Shown here piece after piece: positions 1 through 22,962 of a stretch of 32,174 bases of DNA (positions are counted from its first letter, which is position 1; every line of letters starts with the position of its first letter). This stretch comes from Candidatus Woesebacteria bacterium. Its GTDB lineage: Bacteria > Patescibacteriota > Microgenomatia > UBA1406 > HO2-37-13b. The translations under genes and the position numbers were made by a program. The notes beneath the pieces were generated by a model, which searched no databases, was not told the DNA's origin, and saw only the letters and a list, made by a program, of their open reading frames with translations. Location of the stretch: NCBI GenBank assembly GCA_018062135.1, contig JAGOSW010000004.1, positions 9,025 through 41,198 on the forward strand. Direction: 5' to 3'.

Positions 1-2
1 TC

Positions 3-599
3 GGGGATACCGACGAACAGTTGGTAGCGCTCAACGAAGCCTTCGACAACTCCGGCACCATCAACGGCCTCACGCTCAAGTTTCCGCTCGATGTCATGGC
101 GCCTTACGTGCGCCCGAACAATGCGGCGTGCTGGGTATACGGCAACGAGGGCGAGGAGGTGTTTCTGGGTCGATCCGGTGACAGCGACTATCTCGATGTC
201 TTCGTCTGTCGTGATCGTGGTGTCGGCGACGCTATCCTCGGGATCGGCCCCTGCATACCGACGTGGGGAGACCCCATGCGCTCGCTTACGCGCTCATGGT
301 TCCACGAGTGCGCTCGTCTCTCCGAAGACAACCTGCCTTACGGCACGGGTACGATGCTGACTGCTTTGCTCGCAGACCTGAAGCGCCAGCGCGCCGAACC
401 GGCCGAGGAGACCGATGGCGCTGACGAGGAGTGGCCGATGGTGATGGTGATGGGCTTGCCTCACCTCCATCCCAGCGATCCCCGCGTTCGTTCCAGAATG
501 GCCCGGATGGGCCTGCGGCACCGCGTCGAGGAGGGTGACCCACACGGGGAAGGCTACAGGCCTCACGGAAGGCCGCCGGGGCAGACGCACGTCGGCTGA
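3..599 (+). CDS. GC-rich hypothetical protein, 5' end outside window (cassette A)
   Basis: The frame is open from the left edge of the window (first whole codon at 3) to a TGA at 597-599, so the true start is not visible; an in-frame TTG at 21 is only a possible start. The protein is acidic in its middle and Arg/His/Gly/Pro-rich at its C-terminus, with no signal peptide, membrane segment or family I recognise. Codons are strongly G/C-ending, quite unlike the AT-rich ATP synthase genes next door, and the gene runs opposite to them. The stop codon is the first part of a long stem element that recurs after the next small gene, which ties the two together. Foreign origin or a special gene class is inferred from composition. 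That it is coding rests on a long open frame in GC-rich DNA, where chance open frames are common, so confidence is moderate. Confidence 0.55.
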   Translation, partial: GDTDEQLVALNEAFDNSGTINGLTLKFPLDVMAPYVRPNNAACWVYGNEGEEVFLGRSGDSDYLDVFVCRDRGVGDAILGIGPCIPTWGDPMRSLTRSWFHECARLSEDNLPYGTGTMLTALLADLKRQRAEPAEETDGADEEWPMVMVMGLPHLHPSDPRVRSRMARMGLRHRVEEGDPHGEGYRPHGRPPGQTHVG

Positions 600-3765: not shown

Positions 3766-5274
3766 TTAGTCTACTTTGTAACCACTCATGAATGTTTCGA
3801 CTGCTTTTTTAAGAGCTTTTTCATTTTCGTCACTGATAACTCGAGATTTTTGGATGTCTAGTAAGATTTTCTTGTGCGAAAGTCGCATAAACTCTAAGAA
3901 CTTCTTTTCAAAGTCGACAATATTATCAGCTGGCATCTTGTCAAGATAGCCATTTCCGCCAACCCAAAATACTGCAACTTGACTGCCAAGATCGTATGGC
4001 ACATTCTTTCCCTGTTTAAGAAGCTGTGTCATGCGCGCTCCGCGATCAATAAAGCGCTTTGTCTCCTCGTCAAGATCAGATTCAAATTGTGCAAAGGCAG
4101 CGAGCGCTCTGTATTGAGCTAAATCATTTTTTAATGATTTAACAACAGACTTCATTGCTTTTGTTTGCGCGCTACTTCCTACACGAGATACAGAAAGACC
4201 GACGTTAATAGCTGGTCGAATTCCAGCGTTAAACAGATCTGATTCAAGATACACCTGGCCGTCAGTAATAGAAATAACGTTTGTAGGAATGTAGGCTGAT
4301 ACGTCGTTTTCTTGTGTTTCAATAATAGGTAGTGCAGTCAAAGAACCGCCTCCTGACTTTTCATCAAGACGACACGCACGCTCCAAAAGTCTTGAATGAA
4401 GATAGAAGACATCTCCAGGATACGCCTCACGTCCTGCTGGACGGCGAAGAATAAGTGAGATTTGTCGATATGCCCATGCATGTTTCGTTAAATCGTCATA
4501 GACGACCAATACATCTTTTCCTTTATTCATGAAATATTCACCAATAGCGGTAGCTACATATGGAGCCATAAACTGCATAGATGCAGGATCGGATGCCGTA
4601 GCAGCAACTATTACCGAATATTCCATCGCGCCGCGAGACTCAAGCAGCTGTGCAACAGCGGCCGTATTTGAGCGGCGCTGACCTATTGAACAATAAATAC
4701 ATATCATGTCTTGGTCCTTTTGATTCAAAATTGCGTCAATAGCCACTGTTGACTTTCCCGTGCGTCGGTCGCCAATAATTAATTCTCTTTGTCCTCTTCC
4801 AATAGGAATAAGTGTGTCGATTGCCTTTACTCCTGTTTGCACAGGTTCGCTTACTGGTTTTCGTTGCATAACGCCGGGAGCAATTGGGTCAAAGAACGTA
4901 GACTCTTTTGCTTCGATTTTTCCTTTTCCATCAATTGGCTTACCGACACCGTCAACGATTCTTCCAATGTAGTTGTCAGAAATTGGAATCATGAAAACTT
5001 CACCAGATCCGCGAACTTGCGCACCTTCTTGAATTTTTTCATAATCTCCAAAGACTATTGCACCGACTGAATCTTCATATAGATCGACAATCATTCCCCT
5101 AATATTATTGCCGAAGTCAATCATTTCACCATAAGGCGAATCATTGAGTCCATCTATAAAAACAACTTCGTCTTTCACTTCACGAACGTAACCTACATTT
5201 TTTGCAGTAACTTTTGTCTTCGAAGTATTAATTTCTGCTTCTACTTCTCGGAGAATATCATCAACTATTTTCAT
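3766..5274 (-). CDS. atpA: ATP synthase F1 alpha subunit
   Basis: Non-catalytic nucleotide-binding subunit alternating with beta in F1. 502 aa, full length. The N-terminus carries the helix that binds the delta subunit. The P-loop GDRRTGKS is near residue 170. The conserved 'VVYDDLTKHAWAYRQ' and the arginine-finger region 'AINVGLSVSRVGSSAQ' are intact. It lies between atpH (9-nt gap) and atpG (1-nt gap). Confidence 0.97.
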   Translation of the reverse strand: MKIVDDILREVEAEINTSKTKVTAKNVGYVREVKDEVVFIDGLNDSPYGEMIDFGNNIRGMIVDLYEDSVGAIVFGDYEKIQEGAQVRGSGEVFMIPISDNYIGRIVDGVGKPIDGKGKIEAKESTFFDPIAPGVMQRKPVSEPVQTGVKAIDTLIPIGRGQRELIIGDRRTGKSTVAIDAILNQKDQDMICIYCSIGQRRSNTAAVAQLLESRGAMEYSVIVAATASDPASMQFMAPYVATAIGEYFMNKGKDVLVVYDDLTKHAWAYRQISLILRRPAGREAYPGDVFYLHSRLLERACRLDEKSGGGSLTALPIIETQENDVSAYIPTNVISITDGQVYLESDLFNAGIRPAINVGLSVSRVGSSAQTKAMKSVVKSLKNDLAQYRALAAFAQFESDLDEETKRFIDRGARMTQLLKQGKNVPYDLGSQVAVFWVGGNGYLDKMPADNIVDFEKKFLEFMRLSHKKILLDIQKSRVISDENEKALKKAVETFMSGYKVD

Positions 5275-7712: not shown

Positions 7713-10700
7713 ACAGACATTTTTTCTAGGTCAACTGCCTTTTCGACAATAACTGATAATCCTTCATCTTTCTCGTCGACTCTTCCTTTAAATAGGATAA
7801 CAGCATTTTCGCGCCATGTTGACTGCGATACTGCATAAAGTCGTGGAAAAATTATCAGATCCAATGAACCGGTTTCATCGAACACCGTCACGAAAGCCAT
7901 TTTATCATTATTCTTTTTGGTCGTAACCTGTTTAATTGCGCCGATAGAACCTGCAAAAATATATGTTTTTCCAATATCTTCTTCAGTTATTTCGCCTAAT
8001 TTCTTCTGAACTTTTGTGTCAATAATGTGAGCATACTGTTGAAGGGGATTTCTACTGATAGAAAAGCCAACGACTTCTTTTTCCATCTCAAGTAGAGTAT
8101 TGTCTGGGTGTTCTGGGATTGCAATCATGTCTGTATCTAGAAGAAATTCTTGCTTTACTTCCCCGAAAAGACCAAACTGACCACTTGCCTGCTGTGAACG
8201 ACGAGACACTGCCTCAGTAAGTGCCTGGGGATAATATTGAAGAAGGGATGCGCGCGTGCCAAATGCATCGAAAGCGCCAGCCTTTATGAGGCTCTCTATT
8301 GTTTTCTTATTTGCCTTTCTTGTATCGACTCTGCTCAAAAAATCTTTTAAGCCAATAAACTCCTTTTCGGCACGTGCAGAAAGTATTGAATCAATAGCGG
8401 CCGTCCCAACGTTTTTTATTGCGGACATACCGAGTCGAATGGCTCCTTCTTCAATAGAAAAGTCGTGTTCAGATTTATTAATGTCTGGTGGCATTACTGA
8501 TAGTTCCATAGATTTACACTCCTCAATTGCCTGGAACATTTTTGCCTCTCTCTGAGCACCTGCTGAACCCTGAAGCTCCGCAGTTAGTAACGCTGCCATA
8601 TATTCGATTGGGTAATTTGCTTTAATGTAGGCTGTCCAATAGGCAATTAACGCGTATGAGGCAGCGTGAGGTTTATTAAAACCGTAGGCGGCAAATTTTT
8701 CAATTGCGGCATACAATTTTTCTATCATGGTTTTTGAGTAGCCGCGCTGTTCTGCCTGCTCAGTAAATTTAATTTTTTCTTTCTTCATTAATGCTTTTTT
8801 CTTCTTACCCATTGCCATTCTAAAGCCATCTGCTTCGCTCATTGTGTAGCCTGCAATACCATGTGCAATTGCCATGACCTGTTCTTGATAGACTAAAACA
8901 CCATATGTTTCTGCTAAAAGTGGCTCAAGATCTTTATGTAGATATTTAATGCTTCGTGGACTTCTCTTGCCTTGCAAGAAACTAGGAATAAGCTCCATAG
9001 GACCAGGTCGGTAGAGAGCTACCATAGCTGTAATATCTGACAGCTTATTCGGCTTTAGGTCTTTAGCAAGACGCCGCATTCCCCTCGATTCTAATTGGAA
9101 GACACCGACGGTCTTTCCTTGGGAGAGTAATTCAAATGTTTTTTTATCATCAAGTAACACATTGTGGATATCAATCAAGGTTCCCGTTTTCTTTTTTACA
9201 AATTGCAAAGCGTTTTCGATAATTGTTAGATTTCTTAAGCCAAGAAAGTCGAATTTAATAAGACCAACGGCTTCATTATTAGAAACAGCATTAAGATCCA
9301 GACAGTACATGTCAAACTGCGTAACAATCTTTCCTCCACGCGCCTCTTGTTGCAGCGGGACATACTCTGTCAAATCTTTATCCGCGATCATGACACCGGC
9401 CGCATGCACTGATGAGTGGCGTGCGATGCCTTCTAGTCTCTTCGCGACATCAAGCACTTTTCGCACTTCCTCTTCTTCGTTATACGCCATGCGAAGTTGC
9501 GGGTTTTCTTGCATTGCTTGATCTATGTTTATGTGAAAGCCCTGCTTTCCAACTGGAATCATCTTTGAAATTCTATCGCCATGGCTATATGACATTCCCA
9601 ATGCTCGCGCGACATCGCGAATAGCCATTTTTGCCTCCATGCGACCGAAAGTAATAATTTGCGCCACTTTTTCTTTTCCATATTTTTCTGTGACGTATTC
9701 TAAGACGCGGTCCCGATGGATATCAGCAAAATCAACGTCGATATCTGGCGGACTAGGGCGATCTGGGTTTAAGAATCGTTCAAATGGCACATCGTATTCA
9801 AGAGGGTGAATATCAGTAATTTTCAGACTATATGCGACAAGTGATCCTGCAACAGATCCTCTCCCTGGCCCAACTCCTATATTGTTTGATTTAGACCAGT
9901 TAATAAAATCCTGAACTATCAGAAAGTATGTCGCATAACCTTTATCACAAATAATGTCGAGCTCATATGCAAGGCGTGTTTTTTCTTCTTGTGTTAAGGC
10001 AATTCTTTCCTTTGCTTTTGCATACGTTAACTCGCGTAATTGCTCTTCAGCAGTCTGTCCTTCTTTCAAGGGATAGATAGGGAGAATAAGTTTTCCATAT
10101 GGAATTTCTAAATCGCATTGATCTGCAATTTTTTGTGTATTTTCAATGGCTTCTGGCAAATCGCGAAAAAGATCTTCCATCTCTTCAGAAGACTTAAAGT
10201 AGAATTCTGGCGTATCGATGTTTGAAAGCGGCCTATTTTCTTCATAAACTGTATGTCCAGTTTGAATGCACAAAAGGACATCCTGGGCATATGCGTCTTC
10301 TTTGTTTACATAATGCACATCATTTGTTGCAACGAGTGGAATATTATATTTCCTTGATAATGCGACTAGTTCTGTATTGAGCTCTTCTTGATCATGCATT
10401 CCTGGAGCTCGTTGAAGTTCTATATAGTAGTTTTCTTTAAAAATCTTATGATATTGCTGAAGTAAATTTTCTGCTTTTTCTTTTTGGTTGTTTCGTATTG
10501 CTACGGCGATCTCTCCGCTCATACAGCCAGAAAAGGCAATAATGCCTTCACTATATTTTTCAAGAAGCTCAAAATCCACGCGCGGCTTATAATAATAACC
10601 TTCCAGATGCGCGTAAGTAGTTAGCTTCATCAAGTTTTTATATCCGGCATAATTCTTTGCGAGAAGTGTCAAGTGGTAGCTATTTCTCTCGCCTTCTTCT

Positions 10701-10936
10701 GATGAATGCTCAAAACGAGATCCGGGTGCTTTATATGTTTCCATTCCGATAATCGGCTTTATCCCAGCTTTTCGTGCTGCTATATAGAAGCGAAATGCGC
10801 CGTACATGGCTCCATGGTCTGTGAGCGCGACTGAATCCATATTGTGTTCTTTTGCTTTCTCGATTAGCTCATCAATGCGGGACAAGCCATCCAATAGAGA
10901 GTATTCACTATGAACATGGAGATGGATAAATGACAT
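7709..10936 (-). CDS. dnaE: DNA polymerase III alpha subunit
   Basis: Replicative polymerase, 1075 aa from the start chosen here. The N-terminal PHP domain starts 'FIHLHVHSEYSLLDG' and includes 'ALTDHGAMYG'. The palm motif GPGRGSVAGS is near residue 356, and the catalytic 'PDIDVDF' is at 397-403. A tandem helix-hairpin-helix region lies near 'YGFNKPHAASYALIAYWTAY' and after it. The C-terminal OB fold is near 'AGSIGAIKQVTTKKN'. The frame runs upstream to 11101, but that extension has no PHP character and is antisense to cassette C. The ATG at 10936 sits exactly 6 nt after a TATACT -10 box and has no ribosome binding site, so a leaderless mRNA is likely. The 3' end overlaps the next gene by 4 nt, which puts the polymerase upstream of the ATP synthase genes. 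Confidence 0.96.
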   Translation of the reverse strand: MSFIHLHVHSEYSLLDGLSRIDELIEKAKEHNMDSVALTDHGAMYGAFRFYIAARKAGIKPIIGMETYKAPGSRFEHSSEEGERNSYHLTLLAKNYAGYKNLMKLTTYAHLEGYYYKPRVDFELLEKYSEGIIAFSGCMSGEIAVAIRNNQKEKAENLLQQYHKIFKENYYIELQRAPGMHDQEELNTELVALSRKYNIPLVATNDVHYVNKEDAYAQDVLLCIQTGHTVYEENRPLSNIDTPEFYFKSSEEMEDLFRDLPEAIENTQKIADQCDLEIPYGKLILPIYPLKEGQTAEEQLRELTYAKAKERIALTQEEKTRLAYELDIICDKGYATYFLIVQDFINWSKSNNIGVGPGRGSVAGSLVAYSLKITDIHPLEYDVPFERFLNPDRPSPPDIDVDFADIHRDRVLEYVTEKYGKEKVAQIITFGRMEAKMAIRDVARALGMSYSHGDRISKMIPVGKQGFHINIDQAMQENPQLRMAYNEEEEVRKVLDVAKRLEGIARHSSVHAAGVMIADKDLTEYVPLQQEARGGKIVTQFDMYCLDLNAVSNNEAVGLIKFDFLGLRNLTIIENALQFVKKKTGTLIDIHNVLLDDKKTFELLSQGKTVGVFQLESRGMRRLAKDLKPNKLSDITAMVALYRPGPMELIPSFLQGKRSPRSIKYLHKDLEPLLAETYGVLVYQEQVMAIAHGIAGYTMSEADGFRMAMGKKKKALMKKEKIKFTEQAEQRGYSKTMIEKLYAAIEKFAAYGFNKPHAASYALIAYWTAYIKANYPIEYMAALLTAELQGSAGAQREAKMFQAIEECKSMELSVMPPDINKSEHDFSIEEGAIRLGMSAIKNVGTAAIDSILSARAEKEFIGLKDFLSRVDTRKANKKTIESLIKAGAFDAFGTRASLLQYYPQALTEAVSRRSQQASGQFGLFGEVKQEFLLDTDMIAIPEHPDNTLLEMEKEVVGFSISRNPLQQYAHIIDTKVQKKLGEITEEDIGKTYIFAGSIGAIKQVTTKKNNDKMAFVTVFDETGSLDLIIFPRLYAVSQSTWRENAVILFKGRVDEKDEGLSVIVEKAVDLEKMSV

Positions 10937-10942
10937 GGGTAT

Positions 10943-10948
10943 AGTATA
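10943..10948 (-). promoter_or_regulatory. -10 box of leaderless dnaE
   Basis: On the minus strand GC-TATACT is followed by 6 nt (ATACCC) and the dnaE ATG. Transcription would start at or within a base of the start codon. It is back to back with the plus-strand promoter at 10954-10983. Confidence 0.65.
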
Positions 10949-10953
10949 GCATT

Positions 10954-10983
10954 TTGAGCTGAATATAGCATAAATGGTATAAT
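10954..10983 (+). promoter_or_regulatory. Promoter of cassette C
   Basis: TTGAGC (10954-10959), an 18-nt spacer and TATAAT (10978-10983). It predicts a leader of about 44 nt before the ATG at 11034. Only 5 nt separate it from the divergent dnaE -10 box. Confidence 0.65.
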
Positions 10984-11033
10984 CTCTCGCAATAGACTGG
11001 GAATCCGTCCTAGCTATCAAATGGAGCAATTCA

Positions 11034-11300
11034 ATGCACATCGTAGACGAGAAAGCCCTGTTCGACTGCGAGCATGGGGCCGACATTACGGGTGATGACA
11101 TTCAGTGGGACGTCCTCATTGACCGACGCGTCAAAGCTGCATGCGCCGAAGACGGGATCGACCCCGATCGGGTTCGACGTGATTCGTTCCACGTAACTGG
11201 TGCCATCATCACGGCAACCTATTTCGAGGTCGACAAGGGCATCTGTGCTGTGGCTACGCTCGACATGAGCAGCAACTCCCTTTCGATCAAAGAGGAGTGA
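11034..11300 (+). CDS. GC-rich hypothetical protein, 88 aa (cassette C)
   Basis: The ATG at 11034 follows TGGAGCA (11022-11028), a usable ribosome binding site, and the promoter at 10954-10983. The product is acidic with three cysteines, no signal peptide and no membrane helix. The C-terminal half alternates hydrophobic and polar residues as beta strands would ('SFHVTGAIITATYFEVDKG'). I recognise no family. Codons end mostly in G or C, unlike dnaE and gatB on either side, and orientation is opposite to both. After the stop codon come a sequence complementary to its own ribosome binding site and a pseudoknot, an arrangement repeated in cassette D. A real, independently transcribed gene of alien composition is the likeliest reading. 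Confidence 0.72.
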   Translation: MHIVDEKALFDCEHGADITGDDIQWDVLIDRRVKAACAEDGIDPDRVRRDSFHVTGAIITATYFEVDKGICAVATLDMSSNSLSIKEE

Positions 11301-11303
11301 TCC

Positions 11304-11342
11304 TGCTCCACACCTCGAGCCGGCGCGAGGACATTCGCCGGC
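11304..11342 (+). other. 3' UTR anti-SD sequence plus H-type pseudoknot (cassette C)
   Basis: TGCTCCA (11304-11310) is exactly complementary to the ribosome binding site TGGAGCA (11022-11028) of the same gene. Stem 1 pairs CCTCG (11313-11317) with CGAGG (11326-11330). Stem 2 pairs GCCGGCG (11319-11325) with CGCCGGC (11336-11342). The order is stem1-stem2-stem1'-stem2', with connecting loops of 1, 0 and 5 nt. This is the geometry of a classical H-type pseudoknot. No T-tract follows, so it is not an ordinary terminator. Confidence 0.65.
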
Positions 11343-11373
11343 ACTATTTCTATATGTTTGTCCTCAAATCTGC

Positions 11374-11379
11374 TATAAT
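11374..11379 (+). promoter_or_regulatory. -10 box of cassette D
   Basis: TG-C-TATAAT (11374-11379) resembles an extended -10 element; no convincing -35 hexamer is present 16-18 nt upstream. It predicts a leader of about 50 nt before the GTG start. Confidence 0.5.
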
Positions 11380-11434
11380 TATACCCCATAGTCATAGGCA
11401 CTAAGCCAAGTGACATTGTTTGCTGGAGGCGACT

Positions 11435-11722
11435 GTGCACACCAATATACCTTTGCCGGATCTTGCGAAAGACCGATCAGCAGGCGCAGACGTAACGGGT
11501 ATGAAGAGCTGGCTGATCCAGATACTACCAGGTGTCCTATGGGGATTTCGGGAGCAAGACCCGAACTTCAGAGGACACGAGACTACAGCTCCACTAATCA
11601 GTCGACATGATGGCGACTGGGGTGGGACCTGTGGGGTCCTGGACAGTGGAAATCACATAGTTGGATCGCTGAAGTTCACTTCCGGCTCTGAGGACATGCT
11701 CATCGAGTATTTCCCTAGCTGA
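11435..11722 (+). CDS. GC-rich hypothetical protein, 95 aa (cassette D)
   Basis: I chose the GTG at 11435, 5 nt after a strong GGAGG (11425-11429). A TTG at 11420 in the same frame would put that site inside the gene. The protein has a central hydrophobic, Trp-rich stretch ('SWLIQILPGVLWGF') too short and mixed to call a membrane helix. After it come His/Asp/Trp/Gly residues and a strand-rich C-terminus ('VGSLKFTSGSEDMLIEYF'). No family is recognised. It follows cassette C on the same strand with its own -10 box. It ends in the same type of pseudoknot element, so C and D look like members of one gene class even though their proteins are not visibly alike. Confidence 0.68.
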   Translation: MHTNIPLPDLAKDRSAGADVTGMKSWLIQILPGVLWGFREQDPNFRGHETTAPLISRHDGDWGGTCGVLDSGNHIVGSLKFTSGSEDMLIEYFPS

Positions 11723-11727
11723 AGATT

Positions 11728-11766
11728 GCTTCCAAACTCGCCGCCGGAGACGAGTAATTCTCCGGC
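11728..11766 (+). other. 3' UTR anti-SD sequence plus H-type pseudoknot (cassette D)
   Basis: GCTTCCA (11728-11734) pairs with TGGAGGC (11424-11430), the gene's own ribosome binding site, over 7 bp with one G-U. Stem 1 pairs ACTCG (11736-11740) with CGAGT (11751-11755). Stem 2 pairs GCCGGAGA (11743-11750) with TCTCCGGC (11759-11766). Loops are 2, 0 and 3 nt. Relative to the cassette C element, stem 1 changes C-G to A-T and stem 2 changes C-G to A-T while pairing is kept. AAAATTTCAAAA follows, a poor terminator tail. Confidence 0.65.
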
Positions 11767-11778
11767 AAAATTTCAAAA

Positions 11779-13098
11779 TTAACTAGAAGAAAGTGCGCGT
11801 TTTAAAACTTCCTGGACTTTTTGTGCATCTGCTTGACCCCTCATTCCCTTCATGACTTGTCCTACAAAGAACATCAAGACAGTCTCTTTACCTTGTTTAT
11901 AGCTCTCAACTTGTGAAGGATTTTGCGCTATAACTTCTGCAACAACACTATCTAGAAGACCTTGATCAGTTTCCTTCGGTTGCAGTAGCTCTTTCATTTC
12001 CTTAACAGCTTTTTCGATATCATCTGTCAAAGCAAATTTCTTATTCACCACTAACTTTGATGCCTTTGCCGCCATTGCATCGTCGAGACCTTCAATAAGT
12101 TTGTCAAAGAGCAGGCCTCCATCCCGATCTCTTGTAATAATATATGCCTCATCTGCAGAAATTCCTTTATCAACATATCGTTTTACTTTTTCATGTGGAA
12201 GCTCCAACATTTGTTTACGAATACTCTCGAAAAAAGCATCATCAAAAACAAACGGTGGTATATCTGGTTCTGGAAAATAGCGGTAGTCCGCCGCTTCTTC
12301 TTTTATTCGCTGGGAAACAGTAATTCCCTTACTTTCATTGTAGCCACGTGTTTCCTGCTGTGGAGTTTCATCGCGATCGAGCATTTCTGCGTGTCGCTTT
12401 ATTTCAAAGTCGATCGCTCTCTTTGCAAAGTTAAACGAGTTAATGTTTTTTACTTCTACTTTATAATTTGGAAGCTCCGTCTCACCTTCTCTTCGTAGAG
12501 AAATATTCGGCTCTAAGCGCATCGATCCTCGCTCCATGTCTGCCTCCGAAACTCTCTGAGATCGTATAATCGTCTGCAGTTCTTCTAAAAATTGTTTTAC
12601 ATCGTCAGAATTATCAAAATCAGGTTCGGTAACAATTTCGACGAGCGGCATTCCTGAGCGATTAAAATCAACAAGCGTTTCGTCACCTTCATGAATAAGT
12701 TTTCCCGTGTCTTCTTCAAGATGAACGCGCTTTATACGAACCCTTTTAGGTTCTCCTGAAGCTTTAGAAATAAATTCATAGTAGCCATCAAATGAAAATG
12801 GCTGGTCGTACTGACTAATTTGATAGCCTTTTGGAAGATCTGGATAGAAATAATGTTTTCTGTCAAATTTAGAAACCTTATTTTGCTCGCAGTTCAGCGC
12901 CATACCAATAAGAATTGCCCATTCTATTGCTTTTTTATTCGGTACTGGAAGTGCTCCTGGCAAACCTAGAGAGACTGGGCAGATAACAGTATTTGGCGCT
13001 TTCCCAAACCAATCAGCAGAACAGCGACTGAACATTTTAGATTTTGTTGCGAGCTGCACATGAATTTCTAGACCGATAACAGGAGTATATTTACTCAT
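11779..13098 (-). CDS. gatB: Asp-tRNA(Asn)/Glu-tRNA(Gln) amidotransferase subunit B
   Basis: Transamidation subunit of GatCAB, which turns mischarged Glu-tRNA(Gln) and/or Asp-tRNA(Asn) into the correct amide. 439 aa from 'MSKYTPVIGLEIHVQL', the family N-terminus; the frame extends 9 codons further up but into gatA. 'CPVSLGLPGALPVPN' and 'HLEEDTGKL' are conserved, and the C-terminal GatB/YqeY tail domain is present. The cradle Zn cysteines are only partly represented near residues ~25-45, which is common. The start overlaps the gatA stop by 8 nt. The 3' end faces the cassette D element. Confidence 0.95.
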   Translation of the reverse strand: MSKYTPVIGLEIHVQLATKSKMFSRCSADWFGKAPNTVICPVSLGLPGALPVPNKKAIEWAILIGMALNCEQNKVSKFDRKHYFYPDLPKGYQISQYDQPFSFDGYYEFISKASGEPKRVRIKRVHLEEDTGKLIHEGDETLVDFNRSGMPLVEIVTEPDFDNSDDVKQFLEELQTIIRSQRVSEADMERGSMRLEPNISLRREGETELPNYKVEVKNINSFNFAKRAIDFEIKRHAEMLDRDETPQQETRGYNESKGITVSQRIKEEAADYRYFPEPDIPPFVFDDAFFESIRKQMLELPHEKVKRYVDKGISADEAYIITRDRDGGLLFDKLIEGLDDAMAAKASKLVVNKKFALTDDIEKAVKEMKELLQPKETDQGLLDSVVAEVIAQNPSQVESYKQGKETVLMFFVGQVMKGMRGQADAQKVQEVLKRALSSS

Positions 13099-14470
13099 AT
13101 TTCTGCATAACTGATAGTCGATCAAAGTTAACTAATTGTTCGAGTTGATGAGCTGCTTGCAATACTGTTACTTCATCAAGAAATTTCCCCATGAATTGAC
13201 CGCCAATGGGCAGTCCATTTGAATGCATGCCAATTGGTAATGAAATTGCTGGAATTCCTGCGGCAGATGCTGGCTCAGTTAATACGTCCATCATTTCGCC
13301 ATAGAATGCAAATTTCTCATTATCCCCAACTTTGGTTGCGGTAATTGGTGTTGTTGGAGCAAATATAACATCAACATCTTCGAATACTTTTTCAAAATCT
13401 TGCTTAATAAGATAGCGAACTTTTTGAGCTTTTTTATAAAAAGCATCATAATAGCCTGCAGATAACGCGTAGGTTCCTAAGAGAATACGTTTTTCGGCCT
13501 CTTTTCCAAAGAAACTTCTGTTTTTGCCAAACCTAATGCCATCATAACGCGCAAGATTTGAAGAAACTTCTGATCTTTGCAGCAGCATATATACAGATAT
13601 TGCGTATTTTGGGTGCATAAGTTTAACTTTCTTTATTGTATGGCCGCTTTTCTCAAGAAGCTTTATAGACGCTTCAACTGCAGACATTATTTCAGAATCC
13701 ACATTTTCGAAGTATTCTTCAGCAATACCAATCGCTAAAGTTCGTTGTTTTTTTACTTCCTCAATATATGACGGCACGCTTTCATCTATTGTCGATGCAT
13801 CATGTGAATCTTTTCCAGCAAGAAAGCCAAGTAGAAGTGCTGCATCCTCAACTGTTTGTGTTATGGGGCCAGGGCAGTCCCAAGAAGATCCCATTGCAAC
13901 AATGCCATATCGTGGAACACGGCCATAGGAGGGCTTAAAGCCTACTACTCCGCTCCAGGCTGCTGGAAGACGAGTTGAGCCGGCGGTTTCTGTGCCTATG
14001 GCTGCTGGAATAAGGCCGGCAGCTACTGCGGCGGCGGAGCCGCCTGATGATCCACCAGGAACGAAGTCCATGTTATATGGGTTGCGCGTGGGCCCAAAAT
14101 CTGATGTTTCTGTCGATGAACCATGTGCCCATGCATCTAAATTTGTTTTTCCTAAAATTGTCGCCCCTGCTTCACCCAATCTATGCGTGATTGTTGCTGC
14201 ATAGGGAGCTGTGTATTCTTCCAAAATCTTAGACGATGCTGTAGTTGGGGCATATAAAGTGCCGATATTATCTTTAAGTGATATAGGTAAGCCTTTTAGT
14301 TTTCCGTTAGCCCTTTCTGACTTGATTTGAGGCACTTCCTCGTCAACATACGTATATGCAAAAAGATCTTCATTGTTACCCTTTATTCTTTTATGAAAAA
14401 ATTCTACAACTTCCTGCGAGTTGGCATTTTCTTGCAACAATTCCGTAAGGCTCTTTCCTAAAAAACTCAT
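13091..14470 (-). CDS. gatA: Asp-tRNA(Asn)/Glu-tRNA(Gln) amidotransferase subunit A
   Basis: Glutaminase/amidase subunit of GatCAB. 459 aa. The amidase signature triad is visible: Lys in 'LPISLKDNIGT', Ser in 'GGSSGGSAAAVAAGLIP', and the nucleophile Ser in 'ETAGSTRLPAAWSGVVGFKP'. The signature has AGS where GGS is usual, a mild change. It overlaps gatC by 4 nt and gatB by 8 nt, so the three subunits are translationally coupled in order C-A-B. Confidence 0.96.
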   Translation of the reverse strand: MSFLGKSLTELLQENANSQEVVEFFHKRIKGNNEDLFAYTYVDEEVPQIKSERANGKLKGLPISLKDNIGTLYAPTTASSKILEEYTAPYAATITHRLGEAGATILGKTNLDAWAHGSSTETSDFGPTRNPYNMDFVPGGSSGGSAAAVAAGLIPAAIGTETAGSTRLPAAWSGVVGFKPSYGRVPRYGIVAMGSSWDCPGPITQTVEDAALLLGFLAGKDSHDASTIDESVPSYIEEVKKQRTLAIGIAEEYFENVDSEIMSAVEASIKLLEKSGHTIKKVKLMHPKYAISVYMLLQRSEVSSNLARYDGIRFGKNRSFFGKEAEKRILLGTYALSAGYYDAFYKKAQKVRYLIKQDFEKVFEDVDVIFAPTTPITATKVGDNEKFAFYGEMMDVLTEPASAAGIPAISLPIGMHSNGLPIGGQFMGKFLDEVTVLQAAHQLEQLVNFDRLSVMQKYE

Positions 14471-18748: not shown

Positions 18749-18767
18749 ATGGGTTGCACTAGTAGCT

Positions 18768-18842
18768 TTCCGATGTTAGCTATACTAAATCGGAATCTAC
18801 GACAGTGGTTAGAGCGGTCCGACATCACGTCGGACAGGTCGC
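18768..18842 (+). repeat. tRNA-Asp-like element, copy 1
   Basis: A 7-bp hairpin (TTCCGAT 18768-18774 with ATCGGAA 18789-18795) leads into a 40-nt core (18803-18842). The core matches the tRNA-Asp D-arm (CAGTGGTTAGAGCG) and the sequence after the anticodon stem (AGGTCGC). The anticodon stem is replaced by GTCCGAC/GTCGGAC around a 5-nt loop ATCAC. The core is 36/40 identical to copy 2 at 19206-19245. There is no tRNA-like acceptor 3' half, so it is not a working tRNA. It ends 6 nt before the GIY-YIG ATG and so forms that gene's leader. Confidence 0.65.
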
Positions 18843-18848
18843 AGAAAT

Positions 18849-19190: not shown

Positions 19191-19200
19191 CCCATCTCAG

Positions 19201-19277
19201 TTATTCAGTGGCTAGAACGGTCCGACGTCATGTCGGACAGGTCGCTCCGATGATTCGAATATCGGAGTCAGTCCCGC
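19201..19277 (+). repeat. tRNA-Asp-like element, copy 2
   Basis: The D-arm-like core (19206-19245) is 36/40 identical to copy 1. GTCCGAC/GTCGGAC closes a loop GTCAT. A T-arm-like hairpin CTCCGAT/ATCGGAG (19245-19251, 19261-19267) has loop GATTCGAAT, and the 3' end GTCAGTCCCGC is the same as in the adjacent tRNA-Asp. The matching 5' acceptor strand is absent, and the loop lacks U33 in the right place, so decoding is unlikely. It looks like a diverged tRNA-Asp copy. It ends 4 nt before the stop of the convergent metallopeptidase gene. Confidence 0.65.
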
Positions 19278-22608: not shown

Positions 22609-22614
22609 TATAAT
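22609..22614 (+). promoter_or_regulatory. -10 box of cassette E
   Basis: TATAAT (22609-22614) on the plus strand; no clear -35 hexamer. It predicts a long leader of about 95 nt before the ATG at 22717. The leader contains AGGC/GCCT pairing near 22630-22646. Confidence 0.5.
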
Positions 22615-22677
22615 GTTCTTCCCGATACAGAGGCCTAAAGCAAGCCTGGCTAATCTGTTAAGGAAACATCGATACCA

Positions 22678-22690
22678 ACCCGGGAGAGGG
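22678..22690 (+). promoter_or_regulatory. 5' leader segment complementary to the 3' hairpin of cassette E
   Basis: ACCCGGGAGAGGG is the exact reverse complement of CCCTCTCCCGGGT at 22887-22899, which includes the loop and part of the stem of the hairpin after the gene. The segment lies 14 nt upstream of the ribosome binding site AGGAGA (22704-22709). Confidence 0.6.
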
Positions 22691-22716
22691 TTCATCAGAA
22701 ACTAGGAGAAGCCCAA

Positions 22717-22863
22717 ATGGCCAAGCATAAGAAGGACGGCGTAAGAGCCGTTCAGAAACCTAAATCACCCTGCCCATGCAAGCAGGGTGTGTGGGAAGCA
22801 ATCTTCGAAAAAGGCTTCAAGGTCGTAGGCTACAAGTGTAGCCACTGCGGCAATAAAGCCTAA
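22717..22863 (+). CDS. Small Zn-ribbon-like protein, 48 aa (cassette E)
   Basis: ORF found by eye: ATG at 22717, 7 nt after AGGAGA (22704-22709), stop TAA at 22861-22863. The N-terminus is Lys/Arg-rich (~17 residues). Cys pairs 'CPCK' and 'CSHC', about 20 residues apart with aromatic and hydrophobic residues between, look like one small zinc ribbon. Such a basic, single-ribbon protein could bind nucleic acid or ribosomes, but no family is recognised. Composition is richer in G/C than the flanking genes, though less extreme than cassettes B-D. It is plus-strand, divergent from peptidase E and upstream of the LysM gene. A strong hairpin follows the stop. Confidence 0.75.
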   Translation: MAKHKKDGVRAVQKPKSPCPCKQGVWEAIFEKGFKVVGYKCSHCGNKA

Positions 22864-22876
22864 CCAACCATCGGTT

Positions 22877-22904
22877 TCGTCACCCTCCCTCTCCCGGGTG
22901 ACGA
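22877..22904 (+). terminator. 3' hairpin of cassette E with leader-complementary loop
   Basis: TCGTCACCC (22877-22885) pairs perfectly with GGGTGACGA (22896-22904) around a 10-nt pyrimidine loop TCCCTCTCCC. Nine loop bases (22887-22895) match GGGAGAGGG at 22682-22690 in the leader. No T-tract follows (CACAATATTC), so it may be a 3' stabiliser or a pairing device rather than an intrinsic terminator. Confidence 0.65.
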
Positions 22905-22962
22905 CACAATATTCATACCTAGTGTGAACCCATTTCTATCACTTTTGTATAGTAATGATATA

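Follow-up and report, generated by a model that had tools for sequence, protein, structure and literature searches.

What are the two small transcription units that lie on the plus strand between the minus-strand housekeeping genes dnaE, which starts at 10936, and gatB, which ends at 11779, and what role do the tails that they have in common play? All positions given without a locus name refer to the window, that is, the whole 32,174-nt stretch of DNA that was analysed, which comes from a bacterium with a 736-kb genome (35.7% GC, 82% complete), whose apparent place in the candidate phyla radiation rests on the initial annotation and on genome size and gene content; no genus-mate of this genome was present among the relatives searched. 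Since gatB lies directly next to dnaE, on the same strand, in each of the seven other family genomes, the two units, here called C and D, are most simply explained as a lineage-specific insertion into the gatB-dnaE junction (Table 1), and 12 nt separate the end of the D tail (11766) from the gatB stop codon.

Table 1 Features of the C and D units and their 3′ tails, in window coordinates.
Feature	Position	Strand	Basis or detail
Lineage-specific insertion (most simply) between dnaE and gatB	10937..11778		gatB and dnaE directly adjacent in 7/7 other family genomes
C −10 promoter element TATAAT (TTGAGC, 18-nt spacer, extended −10)	10978..10983	+	consensus scan, 10/12 matches
C ribosome binding site TGGAGCA	11022..11028	+	sequence
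Gene C, 88-aa orphan protein	11034..11300	+	open reading frame; no relatives
TGCTCCA, exact complement of the C ribosome binding site	11304..11310	+	sequence, pairing test, full-length fold
C H-type pseudoknot (probable)	11313..11342	+	loops 1/0/5
C stem 1, CCTCG/CGAGG	11313-11317/11326-11330	+	
C stem 2, GCCGGCG/CGCCGGC	11319-11325/11336-11342	+	
−10-like TATAAT before D	11374..11379	+	sequence
D ribosome binding site TGGAGGC	11424..11430	+	sequence
Gene D, 95 aa, GTG start	11435..11722	+	model pLDDT 92.8; no relatives
GCTTCCA, pairs with the D ribosome binding site, one G-U	11728..11734	+	sequence, pairing test, full-length fold
D H-type pseudoknot (probable)	11736..11766	+	loops 2/0/3
D stem 1, ACTCG/CGAGT	11736-11740/11751-11755	+	
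D stem 2, GCCGGAGA/TCTCCGGC	11743-11750/11759-11766	+	

The initial annotation had described, behind each gene, a heptamer complementary to the gene's own ribosome binding site (the Shine-Dalgarno sequence, SD), followed by a pseudoknot, and the letters of both heptamers, the order a-b-a′-b′, the listed base pairs and the loop lengths are all present. Both tails have two exactly pairing stems and sterically possible loops in the order that characterises an H-type pseudoknot. Between C and D, each stem carries one compensatory change from C-G to A-U, altered on both sides and with no pair broken (stem 1 alone, p ~0.04; both stems, ~7e-4, by a simple independence count over two related sequences), so that the covariation proposed for the stems comes to one pair per stem. 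A compact knot with the observed short loops arose in only 6 (C) and 56 (D) of 200,000 dinucleotide shuffles of the tails. Counting the other way, minimum-free-energy folding without knots yields stem 2 only. From the pairing, the compensatory changes and the shuffles, we infer that the C and D tails probably form a small H-type knot.

A search for the tail pattern across 380 genomes, namely this one and 379 others of the phylum, returned C and D only; three further matches were judged to be plain hairpins from the matched letters, their upstream sequence being unread. The lack of further copies behind other GC-rich genes, in this genome as in the 379 others, is one of the outcomes that the initial annotation had itself named as refuting its proposal. 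Rfam searches at the C and D tails, at gathering and at permissive thresholds up to E 10, showed no ribozyme, riboswitch or terminator family, and no ligand domain was found for the element. In its two stems, its a-b-a′-b′ order and its short loops, the knot resembles the H-type pseudoknots of the preQ1 and SAM-II/SAM-V classes of riboswitch, whereas it lies at the 3′ end rather than in a 5′ leader, is without their conserved ligand-binding loop and is known from two sequences.

The two proteins had been taken to be unrelated, with the RNA module as the only part shared, a view that is probably wrong. The 3′ tails of C and D are homologous throughout (alignment z of 5.1 when global and 8.1 when local), and AlphaFold2 models made without an alignment predict a common order of elements in the two proteins, consisting of a short helix, a long helix and four strands. 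A motif precedes the long helix in both (GAD[I]TG at residues 15-20 of C, GAD[V]TG at residues 17-22 of D). The C model has a pLDDT of 73 and is poor in its first 18 residues, and the more confident D model (Table 1) has an extra first strand compared with C. Counting against homology of the proteins, their sequences show no significant similarity (BLASTP E 0.12; alignment permutation p 0.09-0.13), and helix-plus-four-strand folds are common. The predicted architecture suggests that the proteins are homologous, and C and D are probably diverged tandem duplicates of one gene, for which a tandem duplication of the whole unit followed by fast divergence of the proteins is the simplest account. 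Such a duplication suffices to explain the tail common to both genes, and it deprives the idea of a portable RNA device, joined to genes of separate origin, of its main support. No homologs of C or D were found in 96 related genomes, GTDB contigs, viral contigs or phages, nor with a C+D profile. The C protein had no Pfam or PHROG match, and a comparison of both models with PDB and viral folds gave no confident match, with cystatin-like or NTF2-like folds weakly listed for both.

About 20 further GC-rich units occur in this genome, and in many of them the GC-rich stretch starts just past a native −10 element and runs to a structured tail. A 3′ stem was found in 21 units (unit B gave none, and the entries for L041, L046a and L046b are inner stems picked by the program), and around 14 of these stems are GC-rich, with 10-15 pairs, at 2-55 nt past the stop codon. 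Adjacent GC-rich units elsewhere in the genome are clearly paralogous: small proteins on contig 9 reach z values of up to 8.2, two proteins on contig 11 give z 5.1, those of L015a/b give z 6.4 with their tails at z 6.1, and the zinc-ribbon proteins of L046 on contig 17 give z 3-7, with the tails of the two L046 units at z 8.6. Related tails are found in some of the adjacent paralogous units; tails of adjacent units are more alike than those of non-adjacent units (p 0.007), and tails of different clusters are unrelated. L046a and L046b end in homologous, larger putative pseudoknots of a type other than that of C and D, with one compensatory and one lost pair per stem and a shuffle control that was not significant (124/500), which suggests that C and D are not the only units with a knotted tail. 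These pseudoknots lie at 4449-4532 and 5700-5783 of L046, in two adjacent units, and have a long, hairpin-bearing first loop; the second unit is an operon of small Cys-rich zinc-ribbon paralogs. In the roughly one-third of the relative G004 that was read (294 kb), there were no GC-rich units of this kind.

At the end of C and D, stem 2 consists of 7-8 GC-rich pairs located 18 and 20 nt past the respective stop codons, with energies of -13.7 and -15.5 kcal/mol, as in the stable GC-rich hairpin of an intrinsic terminator. U is scarce in the stretches that follow the stems (ACTATTTCTATA, AAAATTTCAAAA), with counts of 4 and 3 T in 8 directly after the hairpins; a count of 5, as in a U-rich tract, is reached at no site, and no classical terminator was found at C or D. 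Because a good U tract is absent, stem 2 is no textbook intrinsic terminator. The tails resemble intrinsic (Rho-independent) terminators in having a GC-rich hairpin where a transcription unit ends, soon past the stop codon, and differ from them in a weak or missing U tract, a short stem and a loop that is engaged in the putative pseudoknot.

The reading that we favour, with a probability of about 0.5, is that C and D arose by tandem copying of one inserted small unit and have since diverged, and that their inherited, pseudoknotted tail marks and protects the 3′ end of the message. An ancestral unit, made up of its own promoter, one small gene and a structured 3′ tail, would have entered the conserved junction of gatB and dnaE on the opposite strand, with C and D as its diverged copies in tandem, each keeping the tail of the ancestor. 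Stem 2 stands in the position where other GC-rich units bear a terminator-like hairpin, and its loop would pair with the 5 nt just upstream to give the compact knot. The tail could then act in termination or keep 3′ exonucleases off the message, stabilised by the knot, and the D tail also separates two convergent genes. We infer that a role at the transcript end of this kind, in termination or in stability, is the most likely one.

A possible, if somewhat doubtful, variant holds that stem 2 is a real 3′ hairpin and stem 1 a chance match between its loop and upstream sequence, kept in D because the C and D tails are young duplicates. The knot geometry was found 11 times in the genome compared to 6-10 times in shuffled controls (1.5 million strand positions), so that the pattern alone is not rare and its position is what counts, two of the 11 matches being the C and D tails, right where two neighbouring genes end. 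Stem 1 has only 5 bp, for which conservation alone is at the p value of 0.04 given above, and among some 20 units examined, one event of ~2% would be unsurprising. This variant does not readily accommodate the exact compensatory change in stem 1 with zero broken pairs, the rarity of the knot among shuffled tails, or the pseudoknots in which another, independent pair of units (L046a/b) ends. We consider it unlikely, in turn, that the tails exist to shut off translation, by a 3′ anti-SD sequence that would pair with the gene's own ribosome binding site as in icaR, perhaps modulated by the knot. The precedent itself is proven: in Staphylococcus aureus icaR, the sequence UCCCCUG in the 3′UTR, 260 nt past the stop codon, pairs with the SD of its own mRNA, as established by gel shift, RNase III sites and protein levels (PMC3868564). 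C and D likewise have an anti-SD heptamer in their own 3′UTR, and unconstrained folds of the full-length mRNAs are dominated by its predicted pairing with the SD, at mean pair probabilities of 0.59 for C and 0.74 for D. The icaR motif, however, has no pseudoknot and is backed by experiment, whereas in C and D the pairing is predicted and the match is at chance level. A local test of the 7-nt complement gave p 0.04 for C and p 0.26 (Watson-Crick only) or 0.014 (with G-U) for D, which has just five Watson-Crick pairs in a row; in a broad test over 41 GC-rich segments, the C match was not significant (p 0.40), and 15 of 40 foreign tails matched equally well. Over 16 units, pairing with the SD region showed a small excess of own over swapped tails (0.26 vs 0.17, p 0.036), while a length-corrected energy test of 5′-3′ pairing over 21 units showed none (p 0.30). 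A longest-match measure still stood at p 0.007, most of the signal coming from the single unit L029, and the p 0.05 of an annotation-free test of 5′-3′ closure was driven by one unit. The absence of a third copy also counts against the shut-off. In sum, what survives of the cis-acting proposal is a probably knotted 3′ structure behind both genes and folds that place the SD against the anti-SD, the complementarity being at chance in the broad test; a 3′ translational shut-off of C and D is weakly supported and, the mechanism being known from icaR, would even if real be a further case. General 5′-3′ closure of GC-rich units, for which an early permutation gave p ~0.005, was rejected, since that value was confounded by units with both ends long.

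Two other readings give the folded element a different role, and we regard both as far less probable. That the tails are attC-like recombination sites marking the boundaries of mobile gene cassettes is very unlikely, even though C and D form a clean insertion with a knot at its edge, single-gene GC-rich units are scattered through the genome, and the genome encodes two large serine recombinases. Nothing ties these recombinases to the GC-rich units, and the 82% complete genome has no tyrosine recombinase (no match to PF00589), on which ground an integron/attC cassette was set aside, and no Y1 transposase, on which ground an origin of the IS200/605 type was set aside as well. As with integron attC sites, small single-gene units carry a folded element at their 3′ end; unlike those sites, the C and D tails have no GTTRRRY/RYYYAAC core boxes and no integrase, and the element is not common between clusters, the tails of which are unrelated. 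Only a slight chance remains, in our estimate, that the message is trimmed by its own tail, acting as a self-cleaving ribozyme of an undescribed kind. Small ribozymes are typically compact knots of two stems, and the complete hammerhead core in which L041, another GC-rich unit, ends and a hammerhead candidate at L052 (E 1.6e-6) indicate that ribozyme tails may occur in this genome. C and D themselves, with about 30 nt of structure and no conserved unpaired core beyond short loops, have no Rfam ribozyme match.

The evidence from C and D for a new translational switch is weak, and the more interesting lead is the set of GC-rich units, in which two pairs may have pseudoknotted tails and one unit may end in a hammerhead-like sequence. 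If the knot does form, the inherited tail of C and D would be a pseudoknotted 3′ end of a bacterial message that has no proper U tract, a little-described way of ending or protecting a transcript, in bacteria of the candidate phyla radiation, which are hard to study genetically. The wider pattern would matter more: some 20 orphan GC-rich units running from promoter to tail, with groups of tandem paralogs and related tails, suggest gene gain by duplication of whole small transcription units together with their structured tails. It is improbable, in our view, that this set makes up a class of self-contained, lineage-specific GC-rich units of a patescibacterium, with knotted or ribozyme-like 3′ ends, in which the C and D tails close on the SD and couple 3′-end formation to translation.

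Several further observations concern the other GC-rich units. The hammerhead core of L041 lies at ~13795-13870 on the minus strand of contig 12, in the tail of a GC-rich gene for a 333-aa orphan protein; it reads CTACCC-TC-ACTTGG..CCAAGT-CTGATGA-stem-GAAA-GGGTAG and was unreported by the Rfam models. The L052 candidate (RF00008, 35.6 bits, below the gathering score), at ~12020-12080 on the minus strand of contig 17, is downstream of a tRNA and a GC-rich stretch. At 9066-9495, L052 also contains 92-nt tandem repeats that are identical over the readable copies and resemble the 5′ part of the following tRNA (pattern GGGTGTGTAGCT..hairpin..GGTAGAGCGGTCCGAC..GTCGGAC), and diverged single copies of this repeat flank a tRNA in the window (18750-18845 and 19200-19275). 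GC-rich units at L022 17192-18145 and L029 10582-12015, minus strand, encode recognisable proteins, an SPFH/Band 7 protein and one like class II fructose-bisphosphate aldolase.

Within the window, cassettes A and B have in common a long 3′ structure that is unlike that of C and D (597-705 and 972-1080; tails z 16.9) and strongly folded (z -6.0 and -4.9); the frame of cassette A has at least 192 aa and that of cassette B 35 aa. Cassette A is partly repeated across an assembly gap, where a run of Ns in the scaffold is flanked on either side by an identical stretch of ~130 bases (L007 8920-9025 and window 1-130). Another GC-rich unit, at 22609-22907, encodes a 48-aa protein with Cys pairs (22717-22863). 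Its 5′UTR contains, in ACCCGGGAGAGGG (22678-22690), a perfect 13-nt complement of CCCTCTCCCGGGT (22887-22899), which forms the loop and 3′ arm of the unit's own 3′ hairpin; this is the strongest 5′-3′ complementarity of the 41 segments (p 0.005), and no swapped tail equals it.
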